Virus record (IMG/VR): IMGVR_UViG_3300025141_000424
Coordinates: 1 to 32,899 of that record
Reading direction: 5' to 3' (one strand)
Origin: a virus
Length of the DNA: 32,899 nucleotides
Shown here in pieces: positions 9,513 to 32,899 of the stretch; the first letter of the stretch is position 1, and each line of letters opens with the position of its first letter. The notes under the pieces were generated by a model that was not told the origin of the DNA, ran no database searches, and saw only the letters and a program-made list of their open reading frames with translations. The translations under genes were made by a program, and so were the position numbers.

Positions 9513-10256
9513 ATGAGAATAACGAGAAGCCAGCTCAGAAATTTAATTCTTGAAGCTACAATCGATTATATAGATAATGACGGCAAAAGAATAGCAGTAA
9601 ATGCTGACGGTGTATTGGGAAACAATAATTTAAGATTGCAGTTACAAGGTTACTACAATGATGTCTATGATGAAAAACTTAAGCACCAACAGAAGATTAT
9701 GAGTGGGCAGTATCCAGATCTAGCTAAAGAGCTAGCTCATAAAGGGTCATATTATCAAGCAATGGATGACTTTAAAGAGTACTTGGAAAATACAGTAACT
9801 TCTAAATATGGCAACAACTCTACTATTAAATTTGGAGAACAAGATTTTATTGATGAACAACCAAGTGAATTTATAACATTGAGTGACATTATTTCAAATA
9901 TAGACTCAGATAAGATCAAGTACAAATCTAAATTTAGAGATTTTCCCGATCCAAAGAGAGGAGAATCTAGTGTAGATTATAATGATCATGAACCTTTAGA
10001 GTTCAAGGCTGAACCTATTACACCTGAAGACGAGTTGCAGCAAGCACAGCGACTATCAGATATTGAACAGCGAAGACGAGAGCTAGGCAGTGATTTAAGT
10101 TTTATGTTTGATAAAACAGTCCCCCGGGCTGACTATCCAGATGAGACAACTACACCAAAAGGTTATAAGAGTCTAGAAGATTTAATGGCAGAAGAAGAAC
10201 CGCCTACTTGGATGAATAATAATTCTGACAAAACTGAGCCTCCGCAAGGTCGATAG
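9513..10256 (+). CDS. Unknown protein with N-terminal capsid-targeting-like tag
   Basis: 247 residues from the ATG at 9513; an in-frame TTG at 9495 lies inside the hairpin and is rejected. It begins MRITRSQLRNLILEA, the tag shared with six other proteins of this window, whose end fits a T4-type prohead protease site (I-L-E before A). The rest is hydrophilic and helical with no recognised domain: a Lys/Gln-rich stretch (40-100), acidic segments, and a Pro/Thr-rich C-terminus (PPTWMNNNSDKTEPPQGR). There are no cysteines or membrane segments. I infer a packaged internal head protein whose function is unknown. The TAG stop abuts, with zero spacing, the stop of the convergent minus-strand gene. 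Confidence 0.7.
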   Translation: MRITRSQLRNLILEATIDYIDNDGKRIAVNADGVLGNNNLRLQLQGYYNDVYDEKLKHQQKIMSGQYPDLAKELAHKGSYYQAMDDFKEYLENTVTSKYGNNSTIKFGEQDFIDEQPSEFITLSDIISNIDSDKIKYKSKFRDFPDPKRGESSVDYNDHEPLEFKAEPITPEDELQQAQRLSDIEQRRRELGSDLSFMFDKTVPRADYPDETTTPKGYKSLEDLMAEEEPPTWMNNNSDKTEPPQGR

Positions 10257-10703
10257 CTAATAACTGCTTGTCCCAAGCAACTTATCAATCAATGGGAGTC
10301 TGACACCCCAGTTTAGATGTTGATTTTTTCCCATGTGATGTTCGTAATGCCACGGGAGCCATTTTTTGCCCCAGCTAGTACTGATATGCGAAATTTTGTG
10401 AAGTATATAATAAGAAGTAACTGACCATAAAACTGCTACAAAAAAATACGGCGCAAATAAAAGTACTGGTATGTGACAAACTAAAGTTAAAATAAGAGAC
10501 AAAACTTCAAATTTACTACTAAGTAGATTCTCATAACTTTTGTCATACATTTTATTTTTTCTAGAAATATTATGATGACTTTTAAAATGATTTCGAAATA
10601 GTTTTTTAAATCGTTTTTTATCATGTAGTAAGTATCTATGGGCTATATACTCAAGTATATGTCCGTATAACCAGCCTAATGCAAACTGCAATATAGCTCC
10701 CAT
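10257..10703 (-). CDS. Fatty-acid-hydroxylase-superfamily membrane protein
   Basis: 148 residues on the minus strand. The histidine clusters of membrane di-iron hydroxylases/desaturases are present in order: HRYLLH (22-27), HFKSHH (39-44), LHKISH (101-106, H102 and H106), and HYEHH (119-123) followed by GKNQHLNWG (125-133). Hydrophobic segments lie at about 4-20, 66-90 and 90-102, so it should be integral to the membrane. The family (sterol desaturase / fatty acid hydroxylase / carotenoid hydroxylase) adds hydroxyls or double bonds to lipids with two irons and oxygen. At 148 residues it is near the minimal length. AAGGTGG (10711-10717 on the complement) precedes the ATG. It is the only gene against the grain, which suggests an acquired host-derived gene. 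Substrate unknown; remodelling of host membrane lipid or pigment is inference. Confidence 0.75.
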   Translation of the reverse strand: MGAILQFALGWLYGHILEYIAHRYLLHDKKRFKKLFRNHFKSHHNISRKNKMYDKSYENLLSSKFEVLSLILTLVCHIPVLLFAPYFFVAVLWSVTSYYILHKISHISTSWGKKWLPWHYEHHMGKNQHLNWGVRLPLIDKLLGTSSY

Positions 10704-10766
10704 CTATTTACCACCTTAATATTACCTATACAATTACCAATGAAACATGTAAATATTAATTAAAAG

Positions 10767-10776
10767 TATTATAATA
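10767..10776. promoter_or_regulatory. Palindromic TATTATAATA -10 element in the divergent region
   Basis: TATTATAATA is its own reverse complement and holds a TATAAT hexamer on both strands. It lies 31 nt upstream of the protease ATG (10807) and 64 nt upstream of the minus-strand hydroxylase ATG (10703). I find no -35 box 16-18 nt away in either direction. The same 10-mer occurs at 26523-26532, and a 9-nt match at 28014-28022, each ahead of a gene. Confidence 0.45.
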
Positions 10777-10806
10777 AGAATACACAATTTAAAAAGGAGA
10801 TAAGTT

Positions 10807-11409
10807 ATGCGTTGGAAATTTGAACAGTCATCACTAATTAAGGAGATTGAGTTGCATAGAAATCCTGTAATCATTAAAGTTAATAAATTCACAGAAGATT
10901 CAGCAAAAGAATTTTCTGATAAAATGGCACTAGCACATAATACTGGACAAAAAATAATTCCTGTCGTTATTGATTCTTATGGTGGGAGAGTATACTCGCT
11001 TCTATCAATGATATCAGAGATTAAGAATTCTGAACTTCCTGTTGCTACAATTGTCCAAGGAAAAGCTATGAGTTGCGGTGCTATATTGTTTTCTTTTGGC
11101 GAAGAAGGATTAAGATACATGGATCCTGATGCAACTGTCATGATCCATGATGTGTCAGCAGGTGCTATAGGCAAAATAGAAGAGATGAAAGTATCAACAG
11201 AAGAAGCAGAACGATTAAACAATAAAGTGTTTAAAATGATGGCTAGGAATATCGGAAAATCAGATGAGTATTTTCTTAAAAAAATTCATACAAAAGGGCA
11301 TGCAGATTGGTATCTTGATGCTAAAGAAGCAAAGAAAATCGGCTTGGCAAATCAGCTAAGAGTACCAATACTTTCAATTAATGTCAGTGTTGATGTAGAT
11401 TTTGAGTAA
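10807..11409 (+). CDS. ClpP-like serine protease (S14 fold)
   Basis: 200 residues, the length of a ClpP monomer. The core begins PVVIDSYGGRVYSLLSMISEI (52-72), the oxyanion Gly region of ClpP. The nucleophile is S89 in GKAMSCGAIL, the His is H114 in VMIHDVSAG, and the Asp is D167 in ADWYLDAKEAKKIGL, so the triad is intact. The ClpP-type N-terminal loop that docks ClpX/ClpA is not evident. ClpP-like enzymes in phages may mature the prohead or act on host proteins; this gene lies between two genes carrying the putative capsid-targeting tag, so a maturation role is tempting but unproven. AAAAAGGAG precedes the ATG, and a TATAAT without a -35 box lies upstream. Confidence 0.82.
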   Translation: MRWKFEQSSLIKEIELHRNPVIIKVNKFTEDSAKEFSDKMALAHNTGQKIIPVVIDSYGGRVYSLLSMISEIKNSELPVATIVQGKAMSCGAILFSFGEEGLRYMDPDATVMIHDVSAGAIGKIEEMKVSTEEAERLNNKVFKMMARNIGKSDEYFLKKIHTKGHADWYLDAKEAKKIGLANQLRVPILSINVSVDVDFE

Positions 11410-11450
11410 GTTCTTGTCAGGTGTAATAATTATAGAAAGGAGCAATATTT

Positions 11451-12140
11451 ATGAAGTTAACACTGAAACAACTCAGGCGACTAATAAGTGAGTCTACAAA
11501 TCTAGATCGAAAAATTATTGCATTTTATCCAGGGCGATATCAGCCCATGGGCAGGCATCATAAGGCAACTTATGACTGGATGGTTTCGAAATTTGGAGAA
11601 GAAAACTCATTCATAGTTACATCAGATAAGGTTTGTATGCCTGACTCACCTCTTTGCTTTAGAGATAAAAAACAAATCGCTATGGCAATAGGTGTTCCTG
11701 AAAGTGCAATTCAACAAGAAAAAATCATGTATGCTCCCGCAATGTTTAGTGTCATGAAAGATAAAGATCCAAATGACTATGCAGTTGTAATTGTAGTAGG
11801 TGAAAAAGACATGAAGCCTTCTTTAGATCCAAAGACAGGTAAGGTTGAGCCACCTAGATTTGTCAAGGGAAAATCTCTAGACGGTTTTAAGCGTGATGGA
11901 ACTCCAAAATATTTTAAGTCTTTTGTCGAAGGTGAGCCCTTAGAAAGTTTTGACAAACATGGGTATGTCATTGTTGCACCCCATCAAGAAATTGATCTTG
12001 GTGGTAAAGAAATGTCCGGATCTAGTCTTAGAGCATTTTTACCAGACGCTGTGGATCAGGACTTCGAAGACATATTAGGCATAACAGATCCTGAAACAAT
12101 TGAAATGATGCGACAACGAATTAGAGGTGATAATGGATAA
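11451..12140 (+). CDS. HIGH-family nucleotidyltransferase with N-terminal capsid-targeting-like tag
   Basis: 229 residues. Residues 1-14 are the tag MKLTLKQLRRLISE, followed by S15, the expected P1' position. The enzyme starts at about 21: IIAFYPGRYQPMGRHHKAT (22-40) is the nucleotide-binding segment of the NMN adenylyl-/cytidylyltransferase superfamily, with GRHH in place of the usual HxGH. VVIVVGEKD (112-120) is the second strand, and MSGSSLRAF (188-196) is the I-S-G-T-x-x-R motif. These enzymes transfer AMP or CMP to a phosphate acceptor (NMN, pantetheine phosphate, sugar or glycerol phosphate); the acceptor cannot be read here. An insert of about 50 residues (125-175) separates the two halves. 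I recall T4-like marine phages with CTS-tagged proteins of this type. AAAGGAG precedes the ATG; the stop overlaps the amidase gene. Confidence 0.8.
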   Translation: MKLTLKQLRRLISESTNLDRKIIAFYPGRYQPMGRHHKATYDWMVSKFGEENSFIVTSDKVCMPDSPLCFRDKKQIAMAIGVPESAIQQEKIMYAPAMFSVMKDKDPNDYAVVIVVGEKDMKPSLDPKTGKVEPPRFVKGKSLDGFKRDGTPKYFKSFVEGEPLESFDKHGYVIVAPHQEIDLGGKEMSGSSLRAFLPDAVDQDFEDILGITDPETIEMMRQRIRGDNG

Positions 12141-13026
12141 AGTATTTTATAATCAAAGCTCAGCTTCAAATCTTGGATGGGATCCGTCTTGGTTTGGTGA
12201 AAAAGAGTTTGACGATGATCTAACAAAAGCAATTGCTAAATGGCAAAAAAAGAATGGATTGAAAGCTGATGGGTTATGTGGTCCCGGGACTTACAGAAGG
12301 GTATATACCGAACGTGAAAATGATATAGGTCGATATATACCTTTCGATGTTAAGAAAAAGGACAAAGCATACATCGTGCACAGAGGATCATTCCTGCCCA
12401 TCAAATGGGATAAAGTTGTATTGTGGGATGATGATGGAGGCTTAAAGTTAGGTGCAGGAAAATACACACCTTACTTTACTGAGAGAAAAATAGATTTTTT
12501 TGTCAATCACTGGGATGTATGTCTTAATAGTGAAAGCTGTGTAAGAGTCTTAAACAAAAGAGGTATATCAGTTCATTTTGCAATCGATAACGATGGAACA
12601 ATATATCAGCTTATCGACACAAACCATGCTGCATGGCATGCCGGATCTAAAAAGTGGAATCATAGTTCTATTGGCGTTGAATTAACAAACGCATATTATC
12701 CTAAGTATCAGAACTGGTATACAAAAAATGGCTTTGGTGAACGTCCGTTAATATCTGATGAATACGTGCACGGCCGAGAAATGGATCCCTTCTTAGGGTT
12801 TTACGATGTACAATTAGAAGCACTCAAAGCTCTTTGGGCAGCATGTCATGAAGGAATTGGCATACCGCTAAAATGCCCATTAGATAATGATGGAAATACT
12901 CTTAAGAAAGTTTCAACATCAGCTGCAGCAAATCGTTTTAAAGGTTTTGTGAGTCACTATCATTTAACTAAACGAAAAATTGACTGTGCGGGATTGGATA
13001 TAAATAAGATGCTAAAAGAAATCTAA
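12133..13026 (+). CDS. Endolysin: N-acetylmuramoyl-L-alanine amidase with peptidoglycan-binding domain
   Basis: 297 residues from the ATG at 12133, preceded by AGAGGTG; it overlaps the previous gene by 8 nt. Residues about 20-58 form a peptidoglycan-binding module (DLTKAIAKWQKKNGLKADGL, then CGPGTYRRVY). The amidase_2/T7-lysozyme-type catalytic domain follows: FFVNHWDV (122-129) with zinc ligand H126, HFAIDNDGTIYQLIDTNHAA (148-167), WHAGSKKWNHSSIGVEL (168-184), and SHYHLTKRKIDCAG (274-287), where H275 or H277 and C285 complete the zinc site. It would cut the bond between muramic acid and the peptide stem to lyse the host. There is no signal peptide, so export needs a holin or tail delivery, and no clear holin is adjacent. 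A module-plus-amidase order is common in endolysins of Gram-negative hosts' phages. Confidence 0.9.
   Translation: MDKVFYNQSSASNLGWDPSWFGEKEFDDDLTKAIAKWQKKNGLKADGLCGPGTYRRVYTERENDIGRYIPFDVKKKDKAYIVHRGSFLPIKWDKVVLWDDDGGLKLGAGKYTPYFTERKIDFFVNHWDVCLNSESCVRVLNKRGISVHFAIDNDGTIYQLIDTNHAAWHAGSKKWNHSSIGVELTNAYYPKYQNWYTKNGFGERPLISDEYVHGREMDPFLGFYDVQLEALKALWAACHEGIGIPLKCPLDNDGNTLKKVSTSAAANRFKGFVSHYHLTKRKIDCAGLDINKMLKEI
12999..13006 (+). promoter_or_regulatory. Possible T4-type late promoter ahead of the virion block
   Basis: TATAAATA is identical to the T4 late promoter core. It lies in the last codons of the endolysin gene, 103 nt upstream of the first large structural gene. In an AT-rich genome the 8-mer occurs by chance: other copies fall inside genes near 14126 and 23699. 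Confidence 0.2.
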
Positions 13027-13108
13027 TTGAGATTTAACTTACCGAGCAGAATAATTATTATTTAGTAAGATTTTTTACAATCTTTGTTTTGTTGCGTTTT
13101 AGGTTAGT

Positions 13109-16100
13109 ATGTCAGCTGTTAGAGTTTTAGAGTCTACAGGTTCAAGTGGCTCATTGCAATTATCGGATGGTAGCGGTGGGTTTCTATCGGGCAGTATAGT
13201 AGGCAATGGTGTCTTGATCAATCAAGCTAATACTGTGTTCCAGCTAACTGGAACAATTGGGACAGCAGAAGATGGTACTTATACAGACGGTTTATTTACT
13301 GATTTTACAACTACGACACCTGTTGGTACTGCTGTAGATAGATTTAATGAAGTGCTTAAAGCACTTGCACCAGCACCGGCACCAGATCTAGATGATATAA
13401 ATTCAGAGCAAACAGGCACAACTGTTTATTTGTCTTTTGGCGCAAGCAACAACCAGTCATCAGCAACCCCTGCTTATGTAAGTGTAGGAACTTCAGCGGG
13501 ATTAGGTTCAGCAGTAGATGTTAACGGCATATATCAAGTTGCAACAAGTAGCAACAATATAAGATTAGGAGCATTTAAACTAGATACACACGTAACTGGA
13601 GTTTTAAATGCTGATATAGCTGCTAATAGTCAAGGAAACAACATACAAAACTATCCCGACTTTTCTTTTGGTAATGGAGAAGTAGGCACACTAAGACTAG
13701 ATATAAACGGAACCGGTTCATATGATATCGATTTAACTTCAGTTTTAATTGGGTCAGGAGGTTCAGGATTAGGCACTGGATCTTATAAAGATGCGAATGG
13801 ATCAGGGTTTGTATTTTTATCTACACCTACAACGGGGACATTTTCAAATGGAAACCCTTTCAATTCATTCAAACACAGAACAGGAAAATTTGTTGTAGCA
13901 CACCAAAGTCAAAGAAATGGTTGGAACTATGCAAGAGTGCAGCATATACTCGGTAGTTCTACAGTGACTACAAACTATATTGAATGGGTTAATGACAATA
14001 ATGGCGATGCATTAGCAGCATCAGGTCAAGGGATGGTATTTACAGGATCAGGCTCGATCTACATGTCAGGTATTAAGTATTTTAGATCCGGATCAGGTAA
14101 ATATACTGTCAATATAGATAATGCATATAAATATGTCTATAGCAATACACCTATTGATTTTACTACGTCAACATCAGCAGATCACACATCAAACGCTGGT
14201 TTTAATATGCCTGACAGTGCTATGCCGACAATTGATACTGGCGCCGGAGAGACCCAAACAAAACAGATACAAATAGCAACTTCTAGTAACGTAACTGTAT
14301 CAGACCCGGGATACTTTTTAAATGGAACAATATCAGCTAATACTACAGTTACACACCCGCTTAAGTCTAACTTAACAAATGGTGGATCAGCTTCAACAAA
14401 TCAAATACTTTGTTATAATAGCTCTGATAATAGCACTACTATAAATGAAACATTTCGAGGTGAAGACTTTAGAATAGTATCGAGTTCTTATGATACACAA
14501 GGCGACGTATCAGGAGGAACGTGGGATTCAGAAATTCACATGACAGGCTCAAACACTGTCTATCTAAACGGCTTGCAATTTTATAGAGAGCAGCTTAGAT
14601 CTCCTAAGCAAACTGCAAATGGTGGAAACTTTTCTACTTTAACAAATGGACCTGCAGGCAATCCAAACTATTCTGGTATTAGTGGATTAAGAACGTTTTA
14701 CAGAAAATTCCAGAACGGTGGCGATTCTGTTAGAGATTTTTCTTATACACTAACAGGAACTGGTATAATAGAAGATGCAGGAACAACAATAGGCTCTGAC
14801 GATAAATTCAGAGTATTCTTTAAATTACCTAGCAATGGCACAGACAATTCAGGCTGGATGGATGCAGCAACACAATTCATATATAGTCAGACATCAGATA
14901 ATGACGGTGGCCGAATTGGACCAACTTTTGATGACAACTTGTCTGGAGGCGCAACTAATCACTTTTCTTTAGGGACTGGATCAATAGCAAATGGTGACTT
15001 TGTTCTTGCAAGAATTGAAGCAGACTCTAACTGGACAGGTAATATTGAAAATATGTCAGTATCTTTTGGCGCTGTAGGTACTGTCGAAGCTGCTCCAAAT
15101 GTTAATAATATAGACATAGATACTGCAGGTGATGCTGCTAATTTAAGCTTTGGCGCAAGTTATCCAAAAAGTCCATTCGTAAATGTAGGAACAATAGCCG
15201 GAAATTCAGCCACTGATGTTAATCAAAATTATCAGGTTGCAGGAAATCGATATGGTGTATTTGGTCCGACAATTAACGCAAAAGTTGGAACTATTAATGA
15301 AACAACAACAGGAACACCAGGTTCTGGAAAAGAGAATTATCCAGACAATGCTTTCGGTGGCGGTAACGGTAACCTGGGCACATTAAAGCTTTTTGTAAAT
15401 AATGATTCAACGCCAATACACACTACAGATCTTTCATCATTTGGCTCTGGTAATTCGCTAACTGACGGATCAGGTTTTAATTTATCTGCAGCGGCAGCAG
15501 GCGAAGACACTGACGACTTACCTGATTATACAAAATTTTATAGAACAGGCACATATACGATAGCTTCAGGATCACAGCAAGACGGTTGGAATTATGCAAA
15601 AGTTGTTCATACAGTTGGAGGTTCCGATAGCACATCAACATATGTTGAGTGGGTTAATGACATATCAAACCCAACACTAACATTTTCTCAAGTAACAATC
15701 GGCAACTTTGGATCTAATTCTACAACTGCACTATCAGGTGTCAAGTATTTTGTTAATCCTTCTGGTTCTTTTAGAATGAGAGCATCCAGCTTTTATAAGA
15801 CAGTATACAGCAATGGAGCGAGTGCTATAAGCTTTCCATCTCCTGACAAAGCTACTATAACAGAAATTACTGGGTCCGGTGTAGGTTTGCAAATAAGAAA
15901 AGTTGCAGGAACAAGTATGGGGATGCCGCTACTAAATACAGGTGTTGCAAATGCTTTTGATTCTGACTTAGTTATAACAGCATCTTTTACATTTGATCGT
16001 AACAGCTCGATTCCTGGCGGTACAGCGTATACAGCAGCAGTTACCGGTAGGGTTAATCACCCGTTGAAGGGTGATCAAACGGCATCAACATCAACAAGCA

Positions 16101-16804
16101 ATCAAGTACTGGTAAAAGATTCAATTTCAGTTACGTCTACAAATCTTATAGAATCATTCGATGATGAGGACAAACGATTACCTACAGATGTTTACACTGA
16201 TCAGACCAGTGTTTCTAGCGCAAATTATAATAGCACAGTCTCACTAAATGGTGGGAATGCTGCGTATAATACTGGGCTGATAGTTTATAATGGAAAACTT
16301 AGGTCACCGCAAAATGCAGGTCTTGGAAGCGATCTAGGTGATTTTAGAGATGTTTCTGAATCGGGACCACTGGAAGCGCCTATAGGTAATCCTGATTATA
16401 GCAGTCTATCAACATCAACAAGAGTTTATTATAGATGGTTCCAAAATCCAAACGTGGCGTCTAAATCTAATTTCAGTATCAATATAAATGGTACCGGTAC
16501 AATTGTACCAAGTACTACTGCATTAACAGGTAATAACTTTAGAGTGTTTATGAAAATACCCTTAACCGGTGCATCAATGAGTACTGGCTATATGGATCTA
16601 GCTGCACCTTTTCAAACTGGGCAATATGCAGATGATGACGGGTGCTTAGACGGATCATTAACAAGCAATATAAGCGGTGGAGCATCAAACAACGGAACAT
16701 TTGGTGTAAAGTCTGTCGATCAAAATGAATATATAGTTATAAAGATTGTTGCAGACAAAACGTGGTCTGGTAATATTGACTCTATCACTCTTTCATGGTC
16801 GTAA
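13109..16804 (+). CDS. Large tail/fibre structural protein with internal tandem duplication
   Basis: 1231 residues, rich in Ser, Thr, Gly and Asn and almost free of Cys, a typical beta-structured virion protein. About 92 N-terminal residues, ending in a Pro-Ala hinge (APAPAPD), are followed by two copies of a ~560-residue unit (about 93-655 and 663-1231). Paired landmarks are LSFGAS/LSFGAS; GWNYARVQHILG/GWNYAKVVHTVG; YIEWVND/YVEWVND; LSGVKYF in copy 2 with MSGIKYF in copy 1; LRSP; GNPNYS/GNPDYS; FRVFFKLP/FRVFMKIP; NLSGGAT/NISGGAS; and NWTGNIENMSVSFG/TWSGNIDSITLSWS. The copies have diverged widely, so the duplication is old. Such units probably form tail-fibre or whisker shafts or receptor-contacting domains; that is inference. 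The start has only a weak Shine-Dalgarno (TTTTAGG). The next gene begins 9 nt after the stop. Confidence 0.75.
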   Translation: MSAVRVLESTGSSGSLQLSDGSGGFLSGSIVGNGVLINQANTVFQLTGTIGTAEDGTYTDGLFTDFTTTTPVGTAVDRFNEVLKALAPAPAPDLDDINSEQTGTTVYLSFGASNNQSSATPAYVSVGTSAGLGSAVDVNGIYQVATSSNNIRLGAFKLDTHVTGVLNADIAANSQGNNIQNYPDFSFGNGEVGTLRLDINGTGSYDIDLTSVLIGSGGSGLGTGSYKDANGSGFVFLSTPTTGTFSNGNPFNSFKHRTGKFVVAHQSQRNGWNYARVQHILGSSTVTTNYIEWVNDNNGDALAASGQGMVFTGSGSIYMSGIKYFRSGSGKYTVNIDNAYKYVYSNTPIDFTTSTSADHTSNAGFNMPDSAMPTIDTGAGETQTKQIQIATSSNVTVSDPGYFLNGTISANTTVTHPLKSNLTNGGSASTNQILCYNSSDNSTTINETFRGEDFRIVSSSYDTQGDVSGGTWDSEIHMTGSNTVYLNGLQFYREQLRSPKQTANGGNFSTLTNGPAGNPNYSGISGLRTFYRKFQNGGDSVRDFSYTLTGTGIIEDAGTTIGSDDKFRVFFKLPSNGTDNSGWMDAATQFIYSQTSDNDGGRIGPTFDDNLSGGATNHFSLGTGSIANGDFVLARIEADSNWTGNIENMSVSFGAVGTVEAAPNVNNIDIDTAGDAANLSFGASYPKSPFVNVGTIAGNSATDVNQNYQVAGNRYGVFGPTINAKVGTINETTTGTPGSGKENYPDNAFGGGNGNLGTLKLFVNNDSTPIHTTDLSSFGSGNSLTDGSGFNLSAAAAGEDTDDLPDYTKFYRTGTYTIASGSQQDGWNYAKVVHTVGGSDSTSTYVEWVNDISNPTLTFSQVTIGNFGSNSTTALSGVKYFVNPSGSFRMRASSFYKTVYSNGASAISFPSPDKATITEITGSGVGLQIRKVAGTSMGMPLLNTGVANAFDSDLVITASFTFDRNSSIPGGTAYTAAVTGRVNHPLKGDQTASTSTSNQVLVKDSISVTSTNLIESFDDEDKRLPTDVYTDQTSVSSANYNSTVSLNGGNAAYNTGLIVYNGKLRSPQNAGLGSDLGDFRDVSESGPLEAPIGNPDYSSLSTSTRVYYRWFQNPNVASKSNFSININGTGTIVPSTTALTGNNFRVFMKIPLTGASMSTGYMDLAAPFQTGQYADDDGCLDGSLTSNISGGASNNGTFGVKSVDQNEYIVIKIVADKTWSGNIDSITLSWS
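13385..15073 (+). repeat. Protein-level tandem duplication, copy 1
   Basis: Encodes residues about 93-655 of the 1231-residue structural protein. It aligns by eye with the second copy along its whole length, including the sequence of landmarks from LSFGAS to GNIENMSVSFG. Similarity is at protein level; the DNA has diverged. Confidence 0.75.
15095..16801 (+). repeat. Protein-level tandem duplication, copy 2
   Basis: Encodes residues about 663-1231 of the structural protein, from PNVNNIDIDTAGD to the C-terminal GNIDSITLSWS. It starts a few codons after the end of copy 1, so the duplication is tandem with a minimal linker. Confidence 0.75.
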
Positions 16805-16813
16805 GGATAAGAT

Positions 16814-17944: not shown

Positions 17945-17957
17945 AAAGGCGATAGTT

Positions 17958-18188
17958 ATGATCATGACAAAAACATTTCAGACTTCTGATATCGGTGTAG
18001 CCGCTTACGTTATGATGCGTGGGCTAAAACTTAAGTCTGCAACAAAAGAGCATAGAGGCAGATTTTTATTTATATTTGAAGATCAAAATGATGAAGGACA
18101 AAAACTTTCAGTTGATTTTGTAAATAGCGAAGCAGCACTCTTCGATGCACACATTAAGAATCTAAAAAATATTTTGTATAAGTCTTAA
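17958..18188 (+). CDS. Small conserved-type protein, DUF5659-like
   Basis: 76 residues from the ATG at 17958, 8 nt after AAAGG. The layout TFQTSDIGVAAYVMMRGLKL, then GRFLFIFED and VDFVNSEAALFDAHIKNLK, resembles small proteins I know as DUF5659: a helix 'F-x-T-x-D-x-x-x-A-A-Y', a beta hairpin with F-x-F-x-D, then a C-terminal helix. Function is unknown for that family. It ends the fibre operon; a weak hairpin follows. An in-frame second ATG at 17964 could also serve as start. Confidence 0.6.
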   Translation: MIMTKTFQTSDIGVAAYVMMRGLKLKSATKEHRGRFLFIFEDQNDEGQKLSVDFVNSEAALFDAHIKNLKNILYKS

Positions 18189-18205
18189 TTGTTAAGATAA
18201 TTAGT

Positions 18206-21991: not shown

Positions 21992-21993
21992 AA

Positions 21994-22956: not shown

Positions 22957-22959
22957 TTG

Positions 22960-22965: not shown

Positions 22966-22996
22966 GCTTTAGAATACTATTCTTAAAGGAGAAAAT

Positions 22997-24743: not shown

Positions 24744-24801
24744 TTGTAAAAGCAACGCATTACAAATTATTATTTAAAAGTTAAAAACTAAAGGAGGCTA
24801 A

Positions 24802-25800: not shown

Positions 25801-26249
25801 TGAGTTTAGGAAAAGTTTATTTAGCAAGCGGGTGGTTTTCACCTGAGTGGTTAGAAGAAGTAGAAAATATCAAAGAGGTACTTGAAACATATCAAGTCAG
25901 ATACTTTTCGCCCAAAGATGAAAATCTGTGTCAACCTGATGCAGAGGACTCAATTCAGAATCAGATCTTTGAAGGCAACATCAAACACCTTCACGAGTCA
26001 GACTGGATGATTTGTAACACGAGAAACAAGGATATGGGTTCTATTTTTGAAGCAGGCTATATGAATAGTCTAGAAAAGCCAATTGTATATTTTTGCGATG
26101 GTCTTCCTGCAGGTGCACAGTTTAATTTAATGTTAGCTGCTAGCGGTGTTAAAGTTTGTCGATCTCTAGCAGAGCTGGATGATTACATTAAAAGATGCGT
26201 CTTCGAGAATACATTGCTTGTTGAAAGGTACGAGGGTGAAATAGAATAG
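25800..26249 (+). CDS. Nucleoside 2-deoxyribosyltransferase-like protein
   Basis: 149 residues from the ATG at 25800, overlapping the ThyX stop (TAATG) with GGGGAG upstream. The fold signature is KVYLASGWFSPEW (5-17), a central D68 in HESDWMIC, and the catalytic segment KDMGSIFEAGYM (77-88), where E84 is the nucleophile position of the family (D-x-G-[TS]-x-x-E-x-G-[YF]). VYFCDG and AQFNLMLAASG complete the pattern. These enzymes exchange bases on deoxyribose or hydrolyse deoxynucleoside monophosphates. Coupled to ThyX and the pyrophosphatases, it fits salvage or scavenging of deoxynucleotides, or production of a modified nucleotide. Confidence 0.78.
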   Translation: MSLGKVYLASGWFSPEWLEEVENIKEVLETYQVRYFSPKDENLCQPDAEDSIQNQIFEGNIKHLHESDWMICNTRNKDMGSIFEAGYMNSLEKPIVYFCDGLPAGAQFNLMLAASGVKVCRSLAELDDYIKRCVFENTLLVERYEGEIE

Positions 26250-26288
26250 TAATATTCTTTGATCATAGATAGGTATTTAAAGGGCATT

Positions 26289-26495
26289 GTGGAAATTGGT
26301 ATTACTTTAGTTGTTATAAAGTCACAAGGATTTTTTAAAGAAGGCATGACCTTTACATGCATTGGCATCAAAGGAGATTGCGCCTATCTATGGTCACATG
26401 ATCAAACATTTTCAACATATGAAATTAAAGTCAATTTAGATGTTATTAAAAGTATAATGCGCCAGCAAGATTATAGAATTTTAGGCTTTAAATAA
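26289..26495 (+). CDS. Unknown small protein, GTG start
   Basis: 68 residues from the GTG at 26289, preferred because AAAGGG ends 4 nt upstream; a TTG at 26259 would add ten residues but has no ribosome site. The sequence is beta-rich (GMTFTCIGIKGDCAYLWSHD, then FSTYEIKVNLDVIKS), suggesting a small barrel. No motif is recognised. It ends just before the TATTATAATA element of the protease gene. Confidence 0.5.
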   Translation: MEIGITLVVIKSQGFFKEGMTFTCIGIKGDCAYLWSHDQTFSTYEIKVNLDVIKSIMRQQDYRILGFK

Positions 26496-26522
26496 CTTAA
26501 GCGTGCATATTTTTAAAAGTCT

Positions 26523-26532
26523 TATTATAATA
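26523..26532 (+). promoter_or_regulatory. TATTATAATA -10 element of the metzincin gene
   Basis: The same 10-mer as at 10767-10776, 17 nt upstream of the ATG at 26550. AAAGGAG (26538-26544) is so close that the transcript would begin almost at the Shine-Dalgarno. No -35 box is seen at 16-18 nt. Confidence 0.45.
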
Positions 26533-26549
26533 GTATTAAAGGAGTTAAT

Positions 26550-27002
26550 ATGATTATTTTAGGGCTTTTAATTTTTACTGTCAATGCTAGTGATCCAAAA
26601 GTATCAAGTTGGATATCTACGCCTGACATTCTTTTATGTAGTGATAGCAGTGTCAACATTAAAGATCTTTCTATTGCAATTGATTTCTGGGAGCAGAGAG
26701 GTTTTAGGTTCGGAAAAATTAGTAAAGAAGATAATTGCGACGACTATCATCGTGGCTATATTAAATTTATAGGCGATGAAGATCTAGAAAGCGGATATCT
26801 GGGAATGACTGAAATCTACGAATATGGCAATCAACATAAGACAATAACATCAGCATATATTGAGATATCTGATAGGCAGTCAGACAATCTAATATTGCTA
26901 GCACATGAGTTAGGACATTCGTTGGGTTATAACCATGGGCACAATAAGAATAGCGTAATGTATAGTAATATAAAACAAGTTAATATTAAAATAAGGAGAT
27001 AA
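26550..27002 (+). CDS. Exported matrixin-like zinc metalloprotease (metzincin)
   Basis: 150 residues. The N-terminus MIILGLLIFTVNAS is a short signal peptide, with likely cleavage after A13. The catalytic site is AHELGHSLGYNHGH (118-131): H119-E120-x-x-H123-x-x-x-x-x-H129, the metzincin zinc motif with its Gly, followed by the Met-turn SVMY (M137). Two Cys (C30, C63) could form a disulfide in the periplasm. It is a minimal catalytic domain without a propeptide or substrate-binding module. It could be exported from the infected cell to cut envelope or surface proteins, or be part of the virion; neither is shown by sequence. AAAGGAG and a TATAAT element lie just upstream; 1 nt separates it from the epimerase gene. 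Confidence 0.8.
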   Translation: MIILGLLIFTVNASDPKVSSWISTPDILLCSDSSVNIKDLSIAIDFWEQRGFRFGKISKEDNCDDYHRGYIKFIGDEDLESGYLGMTEIYEYGNQHKTITSAYIEISDRQSDNLILLAHELGHSLGYNHGHNKNSVMYSNIKQVNIKIRR

Positions 27003-27003
27003 T

Positions 27004-27999
27004 ATGAGAGCTTTTATAACAGGTGAAGAGGGATTCATTGGAAAAAATTTAAAATTATATGGAGGCCCAGGTATTAAAGTAATATCAGGAATTCATAGTA
27101 AAAATGATGAGGCAGCTTTCGTCTCTCAATATTCAACTGATAAAGGCGAACCTTGTATACATAGAAATAATGAAGAGTCATGGCAGGCATTTTTTGAAGT
27201 CAATGAAATTGATGTTATTATACACAATGCCGCTGTTGTTGGTACAGACGTCGTTGCGCTTAACTCTAAAGAGTCAACACTGACAAATGTCCAGGGTACA
27301 TATAATATATGTCGTGCTGCTAAAAAAGCAGGAATTCCTATTTGTTATATTGGAACAACTGTTATTTATGATACACAAAAATTTCAAGAGTCTATTATAA
27401 TAGAAGATGACTTAAGAGGACCCACAACACTGTACGGATGTCAAAAACTTTGCAGTGAAGACATTGTTAAAAGTCAGTCTTGTGACTGGATGATCGTCAG
27501 ACCTCTTTTTGCATATGGCGGAGAAGGTGACATGAATTCTCTAATTGCAAAAACAATATATGCAGCTTTAAATGAAAAAGAACAAATTGATATGTTCTTA
27601 GACCCAGATAAAGTCAAAGACTATATGCATGTTAGTGATTTCTGCAGAGGGGTATGGGCTTGCATCAAAGAAGAATTGTGGGGTGACGACTGGAATATAG
27701 CATCAGAAAACCCATACACAACTTGGGAAATTGTCAAAATCATTGAAGATGTCATAGGTAGAGATATTAGCAATGTTATTAAATGGTATCCAAAAACTGA
27801 CTACCTAGGCAATCACAAATTAAGCTCAAATAAGCTTAAGACTATAATTAATTGGAAACCACAGATATCACTTAGGGCAGGAATTAAAATGTCTTACGAA
27901 AGCATACTGAATTCAAAAAGCTATAATCCGTTGACACATTTGGAAGAAGCAGACGATCGGAATATTGATTTAACTGAGTACTTTCCAGACATACAATAA
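27004..27999 (+). CDS. NAD(P)-dependent epimerase/dehydratase (extended SDR)
   Basis: 331 residues. The dinucleotide loop is AFITGEEGFIGKNL (3-16; G7, G10, G13). VIIHNAAVVGTD (71-82) is the N-A-A segment, and IGTTVIYDTQ (116-125) gives the Ser/Thr. Y144 and K148 in LYGCQKLCSED are the catalytic Y-x-x-x-K. MIVRPLFAYGGEG (about 162-174) and DYMHVSDFCRG follow, as in GDP-fucose synthase/dTDP-sugar reductases. It likely epimerises or reduces a nucleotide sugar (exact sugar unknown), which in phages usually serves surface-glycan or DNA-glycan modification; no glycosyltransferase is in the window. AAGGAG precedes the ATG, 1 nt after the metzincin stop. Confidence 0.8.
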   Translation: MRAFITGEEGFIGKNLKLYGGPGIKVISGIHSKNDEAAFVSQYSTDKGEPCIHRNNEESWQAFFEVNEIDVIIHNAAVVGTDVVALNSKESTLTNVQGTYNICRAAKKAGIPICYIGTTVIYDTQKFQESIIIEDDLRGPTTLYGCQKLCSEDIVKSQSCDWMIVRPLFAYGGEGDMNSLIAKTIYAALNEKEQIDMFLDPDKVKDYMHVSDFCRGVWACIKEELWGDDWNIASENPYTTWEIVKIIEDVIGRDISNVIKWYPKTDYLGNHKLSSNKLKTIINWKPQISLRAGIKMSYESILNSKSYNPLTHLEEADDRNIDLTEYFPDIQ

Positions 28000-28016
28000 A
28001 ATTATTTAAGTTCTAT

Positions 28017-28071
28017 TATAATCTTAACACTCCCAGCATATATTTATACTGTATATGCTGGGAGTTTTTTA
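28017..28071 (+). promoter_or_regulatory. -10 box, terminator-like hairpin with buried Shine-Dalgarno, T run
   Basis: TATAAT (28017-28022, within TATTATAAT) is followed by 6 nt and a hairpin: ACTCCCAGCATATAT (28029-28043) pairs with GTATATGCTGGGAGT (28051-28065), 14 Watson-Crick pairs plus one G-U around a 7-nt loop. A run of T (28065-28070) ends one base before the ATG at 28072. The GGGAG in the 3' arm is the only Shine-Dalgarno, so it is buried when folded. The hairpin can terminate the epimerase transcript, and RNA started at this promoter would begin at the hairpin base. Confidence 0.7.
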
Positions 28072-29427
28072 ATGAAAATAACAAGAAGACAATTAAGAAG
28101 ATTGATGGAAGCTTACGTAGCTGATGTTGCAGGTACATCAATCGCACCCAAAACTGGGGCAGAAATGGGAATCTTTCCACCCGAAAGTATGAATTTTAAA
28201 GGGCGCATAGAAAAATTAATAGAAGTCGGAATAAATGCTGTAGGTGACTATAATTTCCAGCTATATAATCAATATCAGCCGGCAAAACATAAAGAATCGC
28301 TTAAACACTTATTTTCAAATCTGAATGATGAAGAAAGTATAGTTCAAGGTGTTGATTTAGGGATGCAATTAGATCTTTTTGAACGTGATGTACCTGCATT
28401 AGAAAAACTCGCGCTACAAGCAATATTTGCTGCACAAGACTATCAAGGTTTAATTAGCGATATTACTGACTACTTAAAGAATTCTCGTACTGATAGCATC
28501 TACTACACTAATTCTAACTGGAACCCGCAAGAACCTTTAATGCCTAAAGATTTTGTTGACCTTCTTATTAAAGAATCTTTAAAACTTTATCTTCGCATGT
28601 ATGAAAATTTTATCGAAGAAGGTCAGTTTGACCACGGCAATTGGGGGCGCAGCATGGGTGGGTACCCTGGAATGTCATGGCTGAATTTAAACTACATAGC
28701 TACAGGAAATCAATCACAAGCAGGGCAATGGAATCAAAACATGATCCGGATCATAATGCAACCCATCTACGATGAAGAACAGATGAATGCTGGAATAACA
28801 TCAGAGCAACAAATCGACCCTAAACAAGCCTACATAGAGGGGGACAACCCGTTTGTAGTTATGAAGTTTACTATTGGTTGTGACCATGAAGGATCAGAAG
28901 ATATGTATGGTGTAGCTTGGGAGGAACTAATGGGAGTTATTGATGATGAATATGCTGTGTTTGTCACTACTCAAAAAGAAATAGATGGCTATGGAGGTAA
29001 TGAATACGAGTCTACTTTTATTGTGGTTGCAGGTACTTTGTCTGAGTATGAAGTCACGTCAGTATCTGAATTAAATGATTGGTTAGAAAAGCGAATATTC
29101 GAAGCTGAAAATCGCTTCTCTTCAGATGGTTTTAATCGCCCTTGTGGCATGTCATACGATCAATATCAGGAAGAAGTACTTTATACTAATATTAAAGAGT
29201 TGGGTGAAGTAATCTTAGCTGTTGCTAGCGAAAGAGGTTATGGCGCTAAACAAGTAGAAGCATTGCGAAGTTTAATAGCTTCTGATCAATCATCAAATGA
29301 ATATTATAGAGAAGAGTTAGCTGCTGTAATGGCAATATATTCAGACATGCTAGGATTTACAACAGATCTAGAAGATTCTATAGTGAATGAGACAGGAATA
29401 TCAATAGATGATTTTTTTAATCAATAA
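28072..29427 (+). CDS. Unknown protein with N-terminal capsid-targeting-like tag, 451 residues
   Basis: First gene of the tagged operon. It starts MKITRRQLRRLMEA; the tag ends L-M-E before A, one residue shorter than the others. The body is mixed alpha/beta and acidic, with many aromatic residues, and contains a Trp/Gly-rich part (FDHGNWGRSMGGYPGMSWLN, about 187-206), a beta region around GCDHEGSEDMYGVAWEELMG, and a helical C-terminus (about 355-451). No enzymatic motif or known domain is recognised. Translation depends on a Shine-Dalgarno held in the hairpin at 28029-28065. It is likely the main cargo protein of this operon if the tag works as proposed. Confidence 0.7.
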   Translation: MKITRRQLRRLMEAYVADVAGTSIAPKTGAEMGIFPPESMNFKGRIEKLIEVGINAVGDYNFQLYNQYQPAKHKESLKHLFSNLNDEESIVQGVDLGMQLDLFERDVPALEKLALQAIFAAQDYQGLISDITDYLKNSRTDSIYYTNSNWNPQEPLMPKDFVDLLIKESLKLYLRMYENFIEEGQFDHGNWGRSMGGYPGMSWLNLNYIATGNQSQAGQWNQNMIRIIMQPIYDEEQMNAGITSEQQIDPKQAYIEGDNPFVVMKFTIGCDHEGSEDMYGVAWEELMGVIDDEYAVFVTTQKEIDGYGGNEYESTFIVVAGTLSEYEVTSVSELNDWLEKRIFEAENRFSSDGFNRPCGMSYDQYQEEVLYTNIKELGEVILAVASERGYGAKQVEALRSLIASDQSSNEYYREELAAVMAIYSDMLGFTTDLEDSIVNETGISIDDFFNQ

Positions 29428-29448
29428 TAACATTACAAGGATATTTTA

Positions 29449-29937
29449 ATGAAGATAACAAAAGAACAGTTAAGAAAATTAATATTAGAGGCAGCTCATG
29501 ATGATGAAGGAGTGTCTGAAGAAGAATATGAGCCTCTATCACGAGATCAAGAGGATAAACTAAGCAAGTTGCTTAACCCAGACCATATTGGTCAAGCAGC
29601 GTCACTAGCAACTACAATTGCAGGCCCTGACGCTTTTTCAAAACTAGTGAAAACAACCCTGGAAAGAAATGAAGTACTTGAAAATCGATTGACAGATAAT
29701 ATGTTTCATGATATTGAAAACATTGTAATGGACATATTCAATAGGGGCTTAAATAGTGTGCAAATTACAATTTCCAATCAGGAAGGCTTATTGAACATGG
29801 AAGACACAGGAATTACAGAAGATGAGGAACATGAAATATACATGGAATTAATATCTGGTGTTAGACAAAACATTAGAATCGGAATTGAAAATGCAATTGT
29901 TCAAACATTAGTTGCTATGACAGGAGGCAGTCAGTAA
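29449..29937 (+). CDS. Unknown protein with N-terminal capsid-targeting-like tag, 162 residues
   Basis: Starts MKITKEQLRKLILEA (I-L-E before A). The next part is acidic (HDDEGVSEEEYEPLSRDQED), followed by helices (LSKLLNPDHIGQAASLATTI and IENIVMDIFNRGLNSVQIT). There is no Cys and no recognised domain. A pI well below neutral fits a small internal head protein only weakly, as T4 internal proteins are basic. It lies 21 nt after the previous stop with AAGGATA as ribosome site, and 1 nt before the next gene. Confidence 0.68.
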   Translation: MKITKEQLRKLILEAAHDDEGVSEEEYEPLSRDQEDKLSKLLNPDHIGQAASLATTIAGPDAFSKLVKTTLERNEVLENRLTDNMFHDIENIVMDIFNRGLNSVQITISNQEGLLNMEDTGITEDEEHEIYMELISGVRQNIRIGIENAIVQTLVAMTGGSQ

Positions 29938-29938
29938 T

Positions 29939-30646
29939 ATGAAAATAACAAGAAGACAATTGAGACGATTAATTAGTGAAGCTATAACTGATACAAAGAA
30001 AGGTGCACTAGGTCAAATTCCTTACAGAGATCCTGGGGCAGAAATCAGATCTAACTTAAGCCCAGAACAATTGGAAAAATTTGATACTCTTAAAGATACA
30101 GAACCTGCAGTAAGAGACTCAATTGCATCTGGGCTAGGTTATGAAGGCGAATTTTTCGGAGATGACGAATTTGACTTTAAAGCAAAAATGGCAGCGCAAG
30201 ATCCAGACGAAAAAGTGTATCAAATGATGTATCGTTACATCAACACAGAGCGCATTAACGTTAATCACAAGGCACAGCAATTTTACGCTGCAGGTTATAA
30301 TGACATGGCTGACAGCTATGATAAAGTTGAAATATTTTTAAGTGAGCTTCTAAAGCAAAACTTGGCACCTGTACCTGCGTTGGATGCAATATTTAATAAG
30401 ATATCACAATTACAGTCGAGTGAAAGAAAATCGACGTCAGCATATATTTTGCAATCAATTATGGAAAGTCTAGCACGTGAGGCAGTCCGACTGAACTATA
30501 TAGTTGATGAGCAAATTTCTCGAAAATATTTAGGTGATGCAGGCTCTAATCCATTTGACGATTACATGAATCAACTTTTCAAAGATCATCCCGGTATACC
30601 AGAAGATAATCCTGTCGATCCTACTCGAAAGCGGCGTTTTAAATAG
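29939..30646 (+). CDS. Unknown protein with N-terminal capsid-targeting-like tag, 235 residues
   Basis: Starts MKITRRQLRRLISEA, the closest in this window to the T4 tag end (I-S-E before A). The rest is helical and acidic: repeated Asp/Glu-rich turns, FDFKAKMAAQDPDEKVYQMM at about 78-97, and a C-terminal basic tail DPTRKRRFK. No domain is recognised. The first 26 nt of its coding sequence are nearly identical to those of the 28072, 30654 and 32219 genes. AGGAGG lies 12 nt upstream inside the preceding gene. Confidence 0.68.
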   Translation: MKITRRQLRRLISEAITDTKKGALGQIPYRDPGAEIRSNLSPEQLEKFDTLKDTEPAVRDSIASGLGYEGEFFGDDEFDFKAKMAAQDPDEKVYQMMYRYINTERINVNHKAQQFYAAGYNDMADSYDKVEIFLSELLKQNLAPVPALDAIFNKISQLQSSERKSTSAYILQSIMESLAREAVRLNYIVDEQISRKYLGDAGSNPFDDYMNQLFKDHPGIPEDNPVDPTRKRRFK

Positions 30647-30653
30647 GTGCATT

Positions 30654-32219
30654 ATGAAAATAACAAGAAAACAATTAAGAAGATTAATAGAAGGTTCAGT
30701 TAGCAAGCGCGGTGACTATGTTATGCCTGTTGAAGATCCGATTGAAGATCCGATTGCAGGTTTAGACTATAATGATGAACAAAAGCCAAAAATAAAAATG
30801 ATGGCAATGTCAGATGATGAGCAAAATCAAGTGCATGCAAATTTTATTGCAGATATAGGCGGGCATGAAGATACTGATCGATTTGGCGCAGATACATTTA
30901 GTAAAAAGGTACAAGCATATGATTTAGACGTTAATCTGTTAAAAAAGGATATGGATCTAGATAGTGCAATTGCCAAAGCTTGTCAATTCTGGATATACGA
31001 GCACAAGGATGAGCTATCATATTATGATCATATTGATCAAGATAATTCTAGAAAGTATGCTGACTATATGATAGAATTATATGGTGGTGATCAAGCTGTT
31101 GCTAATAAAATTAAAGTGCATACGACAGCAGTTTTAGACAAAAGAATTAAAAGCCTCATCAAAATATCAAATTCTGCAGCACCTGTGCCTTCTGTTGATG
31201 AAAAAGTTGCGAAATATGAGGCTGCCAAGAAGTTATTTTCAACAGATCATAATAACCCAATAGTCGAAGAGCATATACTTTTTAAGCTTTACAGCGTTTT
31301 GTATCCGTTTTATTTTGATTGGAAATCATACTATGAAGAAGAACAAGGTTATGACATGAGTAATCCAGAACATGTAAAGCGTTATAAAGAGAATATTTCA
31401 ACATTTAAGGAAGGTAAAGTTAGACTAACAAGAGGGAAATTAAGAAGATTAATAGAATCGTTTATCGCTGGAGATGATGCTAGTGACCCGGATAATGTAC
31501 AAACTGCTAAAAAAGCTTTTCGAGGTCTGAGCAAGAAAGCAGCAAAGTCCATTGACGATTACAGAACCAGCGTTGGAAAATCTAAAATAGGCCGAGACAT
31601 GGTTTTTTCTAAGGATCCTGAAACAGCACAACAAGGTATTGAGTTAGGCTTTGATAGAGCTCCGGAGGAATTTACAGATTATGAAAAGACTGCAAAGGAT
31701 ATCCCAAGGATAGATCGAAGGACAGATAGACCCTTGGATAAGCATGACGCACTTCTTAAGGCAAAATACGGTCAAGGGCAAGGCTTAGGCGAAGTTTATA
31801 GTTTAGTAGTCAAAGACAACACGGGAAAAGAAGTTTTAATACCTATTATCGATGATCACTCATCGGAAGTAAAAAAGCGCGGTGAAGGCATACCTGAAAT
31901 GTCAATGTTTGATATATTAGATACGTATCGACGCGTTAAACACGCAGAGATGCTAATTAAAAATTCTGACTTAGAGAATGATGACTTTTCAATTCCCCCT
32001 GAACAGTATGGTTATAGCCTGCTCCAGTACAATGCAACTGATGATCTAGAGGGCTATTACATTGATTTATTAGAAGATCATGTTTGGGAAGTATTATCAT
32101 CCCCACCATATAATTACGATTATAAAGATGTACAAAACTTTCCCTACCATAAAATGAGAATCGAACCTCATCATAAAGAATTAGAAGCCGCTTTAACTTT
32201 TGCATCCGGATTGGCGTAA
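30654..32219 (+). CDS. Unknown protein with two capsid-targeting-like tags (possible polyprotein)
   Basis: 521 residues. The N-terminus MKITRKQLRRLIEGS is one tag (L-I-E before G). A second copy, VRLTRGKLRRLIES, sits at residues 256-269 (L-I-E before S). The segment between (16-255) is helical and acidic. The part after (270-521) is another unrecognised domain with DPETAQQGIELGFDRAPEEF and VYSLVVKDNTGKEVLIPIID. A short DNA repeat gives the sequence VEDPIEDPIAG near residue 26. The simplest reading is a fusion of two once-separate tagged proteins, still cleavable at the second tag. The stop overlaps the next start (TAATG). Confidence 0.7.
   Translation: MKITRKQLRRLIEGSVSKRGDYVMPVEDPIEDPIAGLDYNDEQKPKIKMMAMSDDEQNQVHANFIADIGGHEDTDRFGADTFSKKVQAYDLDVNLLKKDMDLDSAIAKACQFWIYEHKDELSYYDHIDQDNSRKYADYMIELYGGDQAVANKIKVHTTAVLDKRIKSLIKISNSAAPVPSVDEKVAKYEAAKKLFSTDHNNPIVEEHILFKLYSVLYPFYFDWKSYYEEEQGYDMSNPEHVKRYKENISTFKEGKVRLTRGKLRRLIESFIAGDDASDPDNVQTAKKAFRGLSKKAAKSIDDYRTSVGKSKIGRDMVFSKDPETAQQGIELGFDRAPEEFTDYEKTAKDIPRIDRRTDRPLDKHDALLKAKYGQGQGLGEVYSLVVKDNTGKEVLIPIIDDHSSEVKKRGEGIPEMSMFDILDTYRRVKHAEMLIKNSDLENDDFSIPPEQYGYSLLQYNATDDLEGYYIDLLEDHVWEVLSSPPYNYDYKDVQNFPYHKMRIEPHHKELEAALTFASGLA
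30732..30755 (+). repeat. Short tandem repeat, 12 nt x 2
   Basis: GAAGATCCGATT occurs twice back to back (30732-30743 and 30744-30755), giving E-D-P-I twice near the N-terminus of the 521-residue protein. It looks like a recent slippage or duplication. Confidence 0.8.
31419..31460 (+). repeat. Internal copy of the capsid-targeting-like tag
   Basis: This in-frame segment inside the 521-residue gene encodes VRLTRGKLRRLIES (residues 256-269). The DNA carries the stretch AAATTAAGAAGATTAATAGA, nearly matching the 5' ends of the genes at 30654 and 32219. There is no ATG or Shine-Dalgarno here, so it is not a separate start. Confidence 0.75.
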
Positions 32220-32899
32220 TGAAAATAACAAGAAAACAATTAAGAAGATTAATGTCAGAATCATTCATTGGCGCACCTGATGGAACAGTTTACACACCCA
32301 AGACAAAGAAGGCTCATAGCGAAGAAGGTGAGGCTTTTGGTGGTGGGTCTGCTGATGAGATGGATATTCCTGTAGTATACGGTGAAGATCACACCAAAGA
32401 GGCAACGCCTAAACTTTACGGTATTTTGACTCGTAACTGGCATGAGATACATAGTTTTCACAAGAAAGGACCGTATATATATAAAACGCTTATGAATCCA
32501 GATACAGATCCGGACAATAAAAAATATTTTCTATCTCTCCTTTGGCAGAGCGAAATTATTACAGCCAAGGCACTTGAAGACGCAAGCCTTGAGATTGACC
32601 TGCTAACGTCACCAGACTTTAAAGATTTTAGGGATCAGTCAGCAGAAAGACTAGAGAAAAAACATCAAAGAGAAATATTTGGAGACATTAAAAAACAGCG
32701 CGAGCTTTATAAAAACCCAGAATATGTAAAGTGGGCAAAGAAACAAATAGACAAAGTTGTTGATGGTGGTTTTGAGTATTTCAAAGATGCAATCGAAGAG
32801 CAATTCTTTTATCACATGCATGATCACAAAAGACAAAAGCTATCTAATTTTGATTACAATCCAGACGAAGGAATACATCCGGAAAATTTTGCATCTCTG
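32219..32899 (+). CDS. Unknown protein with N-terminal capsid-targeting-like tag (3' end outside window)
   Basis: The frame is open for 227 codons to the window edge. It starts MKITRKQLRRLMSES (M-S-E before S) at an ATG that overlaps the previous stop by one base. The body has a Gly/Thr-rich early part (GAPDGTVYTPKTKK), then helices rich in Lys/Glu (RLEKKHQREIFGDIKKQREL) and His near the visible end (FFYHMHDHKRQ). No domain is recognised. It is the fifth consecutive tagged gene of the operon; the operon may continue beyond the window. Confidence 0.7.
   Translation, partial: MKITRKQLRRLMSESFIGAPDGTVYTPKTKKAHSEEGEAFGGGSADEMDIPVVYGEDHTKEATPKLYGILTRNWHEIHSFHKKGPYIYKTLMNPDTDPDNKKYFLSLLWQSEIITAKALEDASLEIDLLTSPDFKDFRDQSAERLEKKHQREIFGDIKKQRELYKNPEYVKWAKKQIDKVVDGGFEYFKDAIEEQFFYHMHDHKRQKLSNFDYNPDEGIHPENFASL

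Follow-up and report, generated by a model that had tools for sequence, protein, structure and literature searches.

A recurrent N-terminal leader in proteins of uncultured phages, a probable capsid-targeting propeptide

The internal proteins of the phage T4 head bear N-terminal propeptides of 10-19 residues that target them to the prohead core, the first ten residues being sufficient in the case of IPIII (PMC9026906). The head protease gp21 cuts after L/I-X-E (PMC9026906), and the internal proteins are injected (PMC12373910; PMC3012670). Each of the T4 proteins Ip1-3 blocks a distinct type IV restriction enzyme, and the three share only their N-terminal leader, by which at least ten internal proteins have been reported and found in T-even phages (PMC12373910). 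We analysed here a virus record of 32,899 bases (IMG/VR record IMGVR_UViG_3300025141_000424, hereafter the window), a fragment without head genes in which variants of the peptide MKITRRQLRRLIxE open seven open reading frames (ORFs). This leader, which marks what we call tagged proteins, is in our judgement most probably a capsid-targeting propeptide, by which the attached protein would be loaded into the head and cut by a protease of family S77, the cargo probably being injected.

The likeness to the T4 internal proteins lies in the short leader borne by unrelated proteins, in its L/I-x-E end and in the presence, here in relatives of the window, of a gp21-type protease and a gp23-type capsid protein. 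The differences are the leader sequence, the number of tagged genes (20-30 in five of six relatives, against three internal proteins in T4), the two or three tags of some ORFs and the enzyme-like nature of some cargo, as well as packaging itself, which we infer here. Since by inspection the consensus of 106 leaders differs at most positions from the T4 leader MKTYQEFIAE (letters as given in a preliminary description of the window), we do not class the tagged proteins as homologues of the T4 internal proteins, only as working alike. Other T-even internal proteins are likewise diverse proteins sharing just an N-terminal leader (PMC12373910), but they come from cultured T-even coliphages, whereas peptides like the present leader gave a single weak match among phage records, in searches of low power. 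The head proteins of the giant phage SPN3US also have N-terminal propeptides cut after glutamate by a gp21-related protease; two of these measure 20 and 24 residues and the others 111-254 residues, and the accessible portion of that work describes no single short leader common to many unrelated genes (PMC10052503).

The leader in the window and its spread among viral contigs

The seven window leaders, all on the plus strand, are MRITRSQLRNLILE at 9513..9554 (gene 9513..10256; predicted cut before A), MKLTLKQLRRLISE at 11451..11492 (gene 11451..12140; before S), MKITRRQLRRLME at 28072..28110 (gene 28072..29427; before A), MKITKEQLRKLILE at 29449..29490 (gene 29449..29937; before A), MKITRRQLRRLISE at 29939..29980 (gene 29939..30646; before A), MKITRKQLRRLIE at 30654..30692 (gene 30654..32219; before G) and MKITRKQLRRLMSE at 32219..32260 (before S), the gene of the last being truncated by the contig end, beyond which it continues. 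All seven exits read [ILM]-x-E followed by A, S or G, with L or I at P3 in six leaders and M in the one at 32219. The preliminary description had reported these seven shared N-termini and their exits, and every one of them was recovered; it had overlooked an eighth copy, VRLTRGKLRRLIE at 31419..31457 (plus strand, next residue S), which lies in frame within gene 30654..32219. Its placing of the glutamate at residue 13 or 14, with A, S or G next, fits each of the seven copies in the window but does not extend to the whole family. The proteins had also been called otherwise unrelated, and this was borne out, none of the seven having a convincing Pfam or PHROG match.

In the viral contigs of IMG/VR, 38 stretches fitted a strict codon-degenerate DNA version of the leader and at least 119 a looser one. 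Among 84,980 bacterial and archaeal genomes the strict version found none, although its strictness could miss diverged copies; a motif found mainly outside phages, which had been named as the outcome that would speak against a phage tag, was not seen. Three tblastn searches of 50,697 phage records with short leader-like peptides returned only LR756508.1, weakly, and since such short queries have little power the absence of the leader from cultured phages is not proved.

We selected from the DNA-pattern matches 30 leader-bearing IMG/VR records, mostly longer contigs. A degenerate leader pattern matched 30 of these 30 records, its reversed control none of them, and it matched none of 28 neutral viral contigs (those of at least 34 kb used from 92 listed for two neutral DNA patterns). 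A profile trained on 310 non-redundant tagged proteins (from 327) recognised, at E<=0.01, 203 of 9,550 candidate N-termini, which include several starts per gene, part of the 203 being training members; it recognised none when the same N-termini were shuffled. The reversed-pattern, shuffled and neutral-contig controls exclude chance or an ORF artefact, and the leader is a phage family. At E<=0.05 the unique tagged genes, some of them training members, numbered 29 in G003, 30 in G006, 28 in G016, 25 in G018, 20 in G026, 6 in G027 and 7 in the window, that is 6-30 per contig across the six related contigs. A search for more tagged genes in the rest of the genome had been suggested as a check; such genes were found in related genomes and not in the window itself.

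Across 106 pattern-found loci, each contributing one leader, the consensus is MK[IL]Txx[QK]LRx[LI]I, with 59% identity over residues 2-14 and conservation of K2, L/I3, T4, Q/K7, L8, R/K9, I/L11, I12 and E14. Short leaders of the window type end at residue 13 or 14, and in the wider family longer ones (LIKEE...) often extend beyond residue 14.

Exit site, head protease and capsid protein

The reading of the leader as a propeptide is built on what we computed, namely the leader and its exit, its restriction to viruses in the collections scanned, the S77 and gp23 genes of relatives, the capsid motif and the co-inheritance of leader dialect and protease. An exit of the form [LIVMF]-x-E/[AGS] (the slash marks the predicted cut) with its glutamate at residues 12-32 was present in 150 of the 310 non-redundant tagged proteins, against a mean of 61 in 200 shuffles (sd 7.5, maximum 87); the same motif occurred in 29 of the 310 at residues 35-55 and in 356 of 2,250 untagged ORFs, some of which are spurious. 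The glutamate of [LIVMF]-x-E stood at residue 14 in 272 of the 310, with extra peaks at residues 18, 19, 21 and 22 (37, 27, 64 and 56 proteins). Neither the exit glutamate nor the later exit sites were imposed by the search pattern.

Head genes were searched for in 33 records, comprising the 30 tagged IMG/VR records, LR756511.1, LR756508.1 and the window. The gp21-type protease (PF03420, S77) was found in 15 (13 tagged IMG/VR records and the two LR records) and the gp23 capsid protein (PF07068) in 16 (14 and the same two). S77 accompanied gp23 in 13 of those 14; in the exception, G029, the gp23 match lies at the contig end. By comparison S77 was found in 4 of the 28 neutral contigs, 3 of them above the cut-off, these contigs being on average shorter than the tagged ones. 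Both genes occur in G018 and G006, which are closely related to the window, with 74% identity in the recombinase, 68-69% in the helicase, 71% in the reductase, 81% in the thymidylate synthase and 50-51% in the exonuclease, and with the same order of core genes as judged by 20-kb tiles. The gp21-type protease, for which a search had likewise been suggested, is present in related genomes and absent from the window fragment. All eight S77 proteins aligned have kept the motifs GE-x-DHP and SSRG, which we take to hold the catalytic residues of the family.

The capsid proteins of tagged phages have a similar motif. Past a conserved L[LM]ENQ stretch, [LV]-x-E/[AS] occurred in 15 of 15 capsid proteins examined (QVLRE/AN, QLLKE/ST and QLVQE/AT are examples), which came from 14 tagged records, 13 of IMG/VR (one with two copies) and LR756508.1; the protein of G029 was left out because its N-terminal part is off the contig. 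We read this motif as the presumed cut site because it is placed before the domain that aligns with T4 gp23 (the G018 protein matched the gp23 structure 6uzc at 9.1e-31). In LR756511.1, which has no leader by pattern, the capsid protein has FNE/I instead; of 153 ORFs of that record, 15 have an exit site at residues 8-25, 5 have one at 40-57 and 10 have one at 70-87.

The leader dialect, defined by whether residues 5-6 are mainly basic, is co-inherited with the protease. In the S77 tree of 13 tagged genomes, those with basic residues 5-6 (7 genomes) and the others (6) were split by a single change, with branch support of 92/91, and only 3 and 2 of 500 shuffles were as low; three of these genomes gave one leader and two gave two, G006 is just 56% basic, and the proteases of G024 and G028 are identical.

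Several observations weigh against a capsid-targeting propeptide. Neither S77 nor gp23 is encoded in the window, and 16 of the 30 tagged IMG/VR records have neither gene, including the long G003, G012 and G021, although such records may be fragments. In 160 of the 310 tagged proteins, residues 12-32 contain no exit followed by a small residue, and, because the search pattern demanded a hydrophobic residue 12, P3 of the residue-14 site is in part a product of the search. The head module is surrounded by tagged genes in G026 alone, where all 20 lie within 12 kb of it against 7.0 expected; the corresponding numbers are 7 (4.4 expected) in G006, 8 (4.3) in G018, 2 of 6 (1.4) in G027 and 0 of 28 (4.3) in G016, and clustering near head genes was not used as support. 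A T4-type late promoter, TATAAAT[AG], lies within 120 bases upstream of only 1 of 116 tagged genes, but the scan is uninformative on expression time because the late-promoter sequence TATAAATA is upstream of 0 of 5 capsid genes as well.

It could be argued that the leader is an uncut helix that localises proteins to another structure, such as a replication compartment, a membrane or the tail, L/I-x-E being then a mere feature of a charged helix. Cutting indeed rests on inference, tagged genes are not generally beside head genes, and E14 is followed by another E (the LIKEE type) and not by a small residue in 170 of 272 proteins. These LIKEE members tend, however, toward a second exit at residues 18-22 (by count and by eye), A and G are about twofold enriched following [LIVMF]-x-E at 18-30 with no excess at 45 and beyond, and the capsid proteins of tagged phages have the same motif, so that we consider this explanation improbable.

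The conserved unit could also be a DNA or RNA element, a translation starter or a recombination seam, with an incidental peptide. Leader codons do agree beyond what codon usage predicts, both across loci (0.489 versus 0.354) and within the window (0.598 versus 0.386 expected, falling past the leader to 0.357 versus 0.449). G018, G016 and G006 behaved like the window, agreement being raised within the leader and not after it, while in G026, G003 and, weakly, G027 it continued past residue 15. Since the agreement within a genome is stronger inside the leader, leader DNA appears to pass between genes by copying or conversion. Across the 106 loci, however, several codons serve each conserved residue (for Arg9, AGA 62, CGT 12, CGA 9, AGG 4 and CGC 4), so that conservation lies in the peptide even where the DNA varies, and internal tags retain the peptide far from any start; a nucleic acid element appears quite unlikely. 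Least likely is that the leader marks proteins for degradation or processing by the ClpP-type protease encoded at 10807..11409. The gene of this protease, situated between the tagged genes 9513 and 11451, has been conserved in G003, G006, G016 and G018, but no more than 8 of the 14 gp23-bearing tagged IMG/VR records have a ClpP match, and G005, G014, G023, G026, G027 and G030, some of them fragments, have tags and S77 with no such match, a co-occurrence so loose that we rejected a ClpP-linked tag.

The packaging and processing tag that the preliminary description had favoured is supported, the exit fitting both the published gp21 motif (PMC9026906) and the capsid motif. Core binding, enclosure, cutting, presence in virions and injection are carried over from T4. 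On that model, the basic amphipathic helix MK[IL]Txx[QK]LRx[LI]I... would dock on the prohead core, and the attached protein would be enclosed while the head shell forms. The gp21-type protease would then cut after [ILM]-x-E, as it would for the capsid propeptide, and the mature cargo would be freed beside the DNA inside the head; it would probably leave with the genome into the next host cell and act at the start of infection.

Two observations concern the head genes themselves. Small genes at or near S77 start with leader-like helices ending LAE/G or IKE/G (G018 42446; G006 152872, minus strand; G016 135443; G027 116013). The leader profile gave them no significant score; possibly they encode prohead core proteins and are the source of the leader. 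G016 has two tandem, very similar gp23-type capsid genes at 139110..141020 and 141082..142965.

Cargo proteins, internal leaders and neighbouring genes

The tagged proteins share almost no family. Among the 120 longest of the 310, Pfam matches were to YkuD, YkuD_2, RNase_T, Rv2179c-like, DUF285, Rep_fac_C and DUF2408, with one member each, and 21 PHROGs were matched, 20 of them by one member each. A G003 protein has a zeta-toxin-type kinase domain, its leader match being non-significant.

The tagged protein encoded at 11451..12140 (plus strand) is probably a nucleotidyltransferase of the nicotinamide mononucleotide/nicotinic acid mononucleotide (NMN/NaMN) adenylyltransferase type. The protein itself matched a cytidyltransferase PHROG at only E=0.19 and no Pfam family, and a PDB sequence search gave nothing credible. 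It shares 46% identity with a protein of L238 that is tagged too (leader MRITHRQLMRLIKE followed by SA) and 34-38% with proteins of L422, L424 and L425, and PF01467 was matched in L422 (6.8e-8), L421 (3.5e-11) and L238 (0.021). A low-confidence model (predicted local distance difference test, pLDDT, 60; predicted template modelling score, pTM, 0.56) had NaMN adenylyltransferases as its top fold matches (5llt, E 3.2e-4).

The viral contigs L421-L425 resemble the tagged records in having nucleotidyltransferase-like and ligase-like proteins with tag-like endings, and S77 was found in 2 of the 5. The former begin MKFDxLVNE in L422-L425, and the adjoining ligase-like (KxDG) protein begins MITFxQFLxE or similar, then GGVAGHM; these putative capsid-targeting sequences differ from ours in being another leader dialect. 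Tagged forms of the ligase-like family read ..LLE/GGxAGHM, while the untagged form of G018 starts M-GGAAGHM, at the predicted cut position (G018 versus G027, 1.5e-48); this comparison concerns one cargo family with leaders other than MKIT. The similarity of untagged relatives to the tagged protein of L044, L052 and L068 starts mostly at its residues 25-32. A 989-residue open frame in L137 (3528-6494) joins a nucleotidyltransferase domain (PF01467, 1.9e-4), a small domain that follows a tag in L005, and, after LLLKE/GG, a ligase-like domain.

Leader-like cores more than 40 residues inside the protein were found in 22 of 3,915 distinct ORFs, against 2 matches in reversed sequences. Ten of the 22 also have an N-terminal leader (six by pattern, four by eye), and L013 has three tags. 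Chance seems to account for at least two of the 22, and mis-called starts may account for most of the others. The two-tag protein of window gene 30654 has a relative, L061:8420 (39% identity over 133 residues), with an N-terminal leader and, by eye, an internal tag, whose record G014 has S77. Such a protein is plausibly a precursor that would be cut into two cargos.

Tagged genes are mostly not common to the window and G018 or G006. In L238, as in the window, the ribonucleotide reductase gene is followed by window gene 9513..10256 (98.8% identical), and L237 and L240 have different tagged genes directly after the reductase; tags were found by pattern near the reductase gene at just 12 of 80 loci (14 tags), so that a tagged gene at this position is no general feature. 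In IMG/VR, two stretches matched the peptide pattern for relatives of 28072 and none was confirmed. The ClpP/S14-type product of 10807..11409 (plus strand; PF00574, 1.1e-25) also matches PHROG 94, "head maturation protease" (9.4e-23), and its best annotated relative is a protein of the 595-kb phage record LR756511.1 (53% identity). Other window genes encode a fatty-acid-hydroxylase-like protein (10257..10703, on the minus strand, opposite to its neighbours; PF04116, 1.1e-11), an endolysin candidate with amidase and peptidoglycan-binding domains (12127..13026, plus strand; PF01510, 2.2e-17; PF01471, 5.4e-6) and a small matrixin-like metalloprotease (26550..27002, plus strand; PF00413, 3.1e-7).

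A probable dialect of capsid targeting

T-even internal proteins had already been found by their leader (PMC12373910), and the kind of system is therefore known. It appears new in its leader sequences, in how many of them a genome has, in their tandem arrangement and in the group of phages concerned: the papers on capsid targeting and internal proteins of T4, P1 and giant phages covered by our literature search, which left most subscription journals and bioRxiv outside and saw some papers only in part, do not describe these leaders. The present leaders add a new dialect to the capsid-targeting system of T4 and enlarge it greatly. We propose more tentatively, with slightly less than even confidence, that in a large group of unrecognised uncultured T4-type phages one interchangeable leader, passed from gene to gene as DNA, loads 20-30 different proteins per genome into the head for delivery, that its dialects, each proper to a lineage, are inherited with the head protease, that enzymes such as a nucleotidyltransferase of the type used in the synthesis of nicotinamide adenine dinucleotide (NAD) are among these proteins and that tandem-tag precursors are separated by the protease.

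If the leader is indeed a capsid-targeting propeptide, the head cargo of an uncultured phage could be read from its sequence alone, and hundreds of orphan genes would become a list of probable early effectors and counter-defence proteins that can be put to the test. New short capsid-loading signals would also be gained, along with the proteases that belong to them, and the three internal proteins of T4 would be a small case of a broad delivery system.

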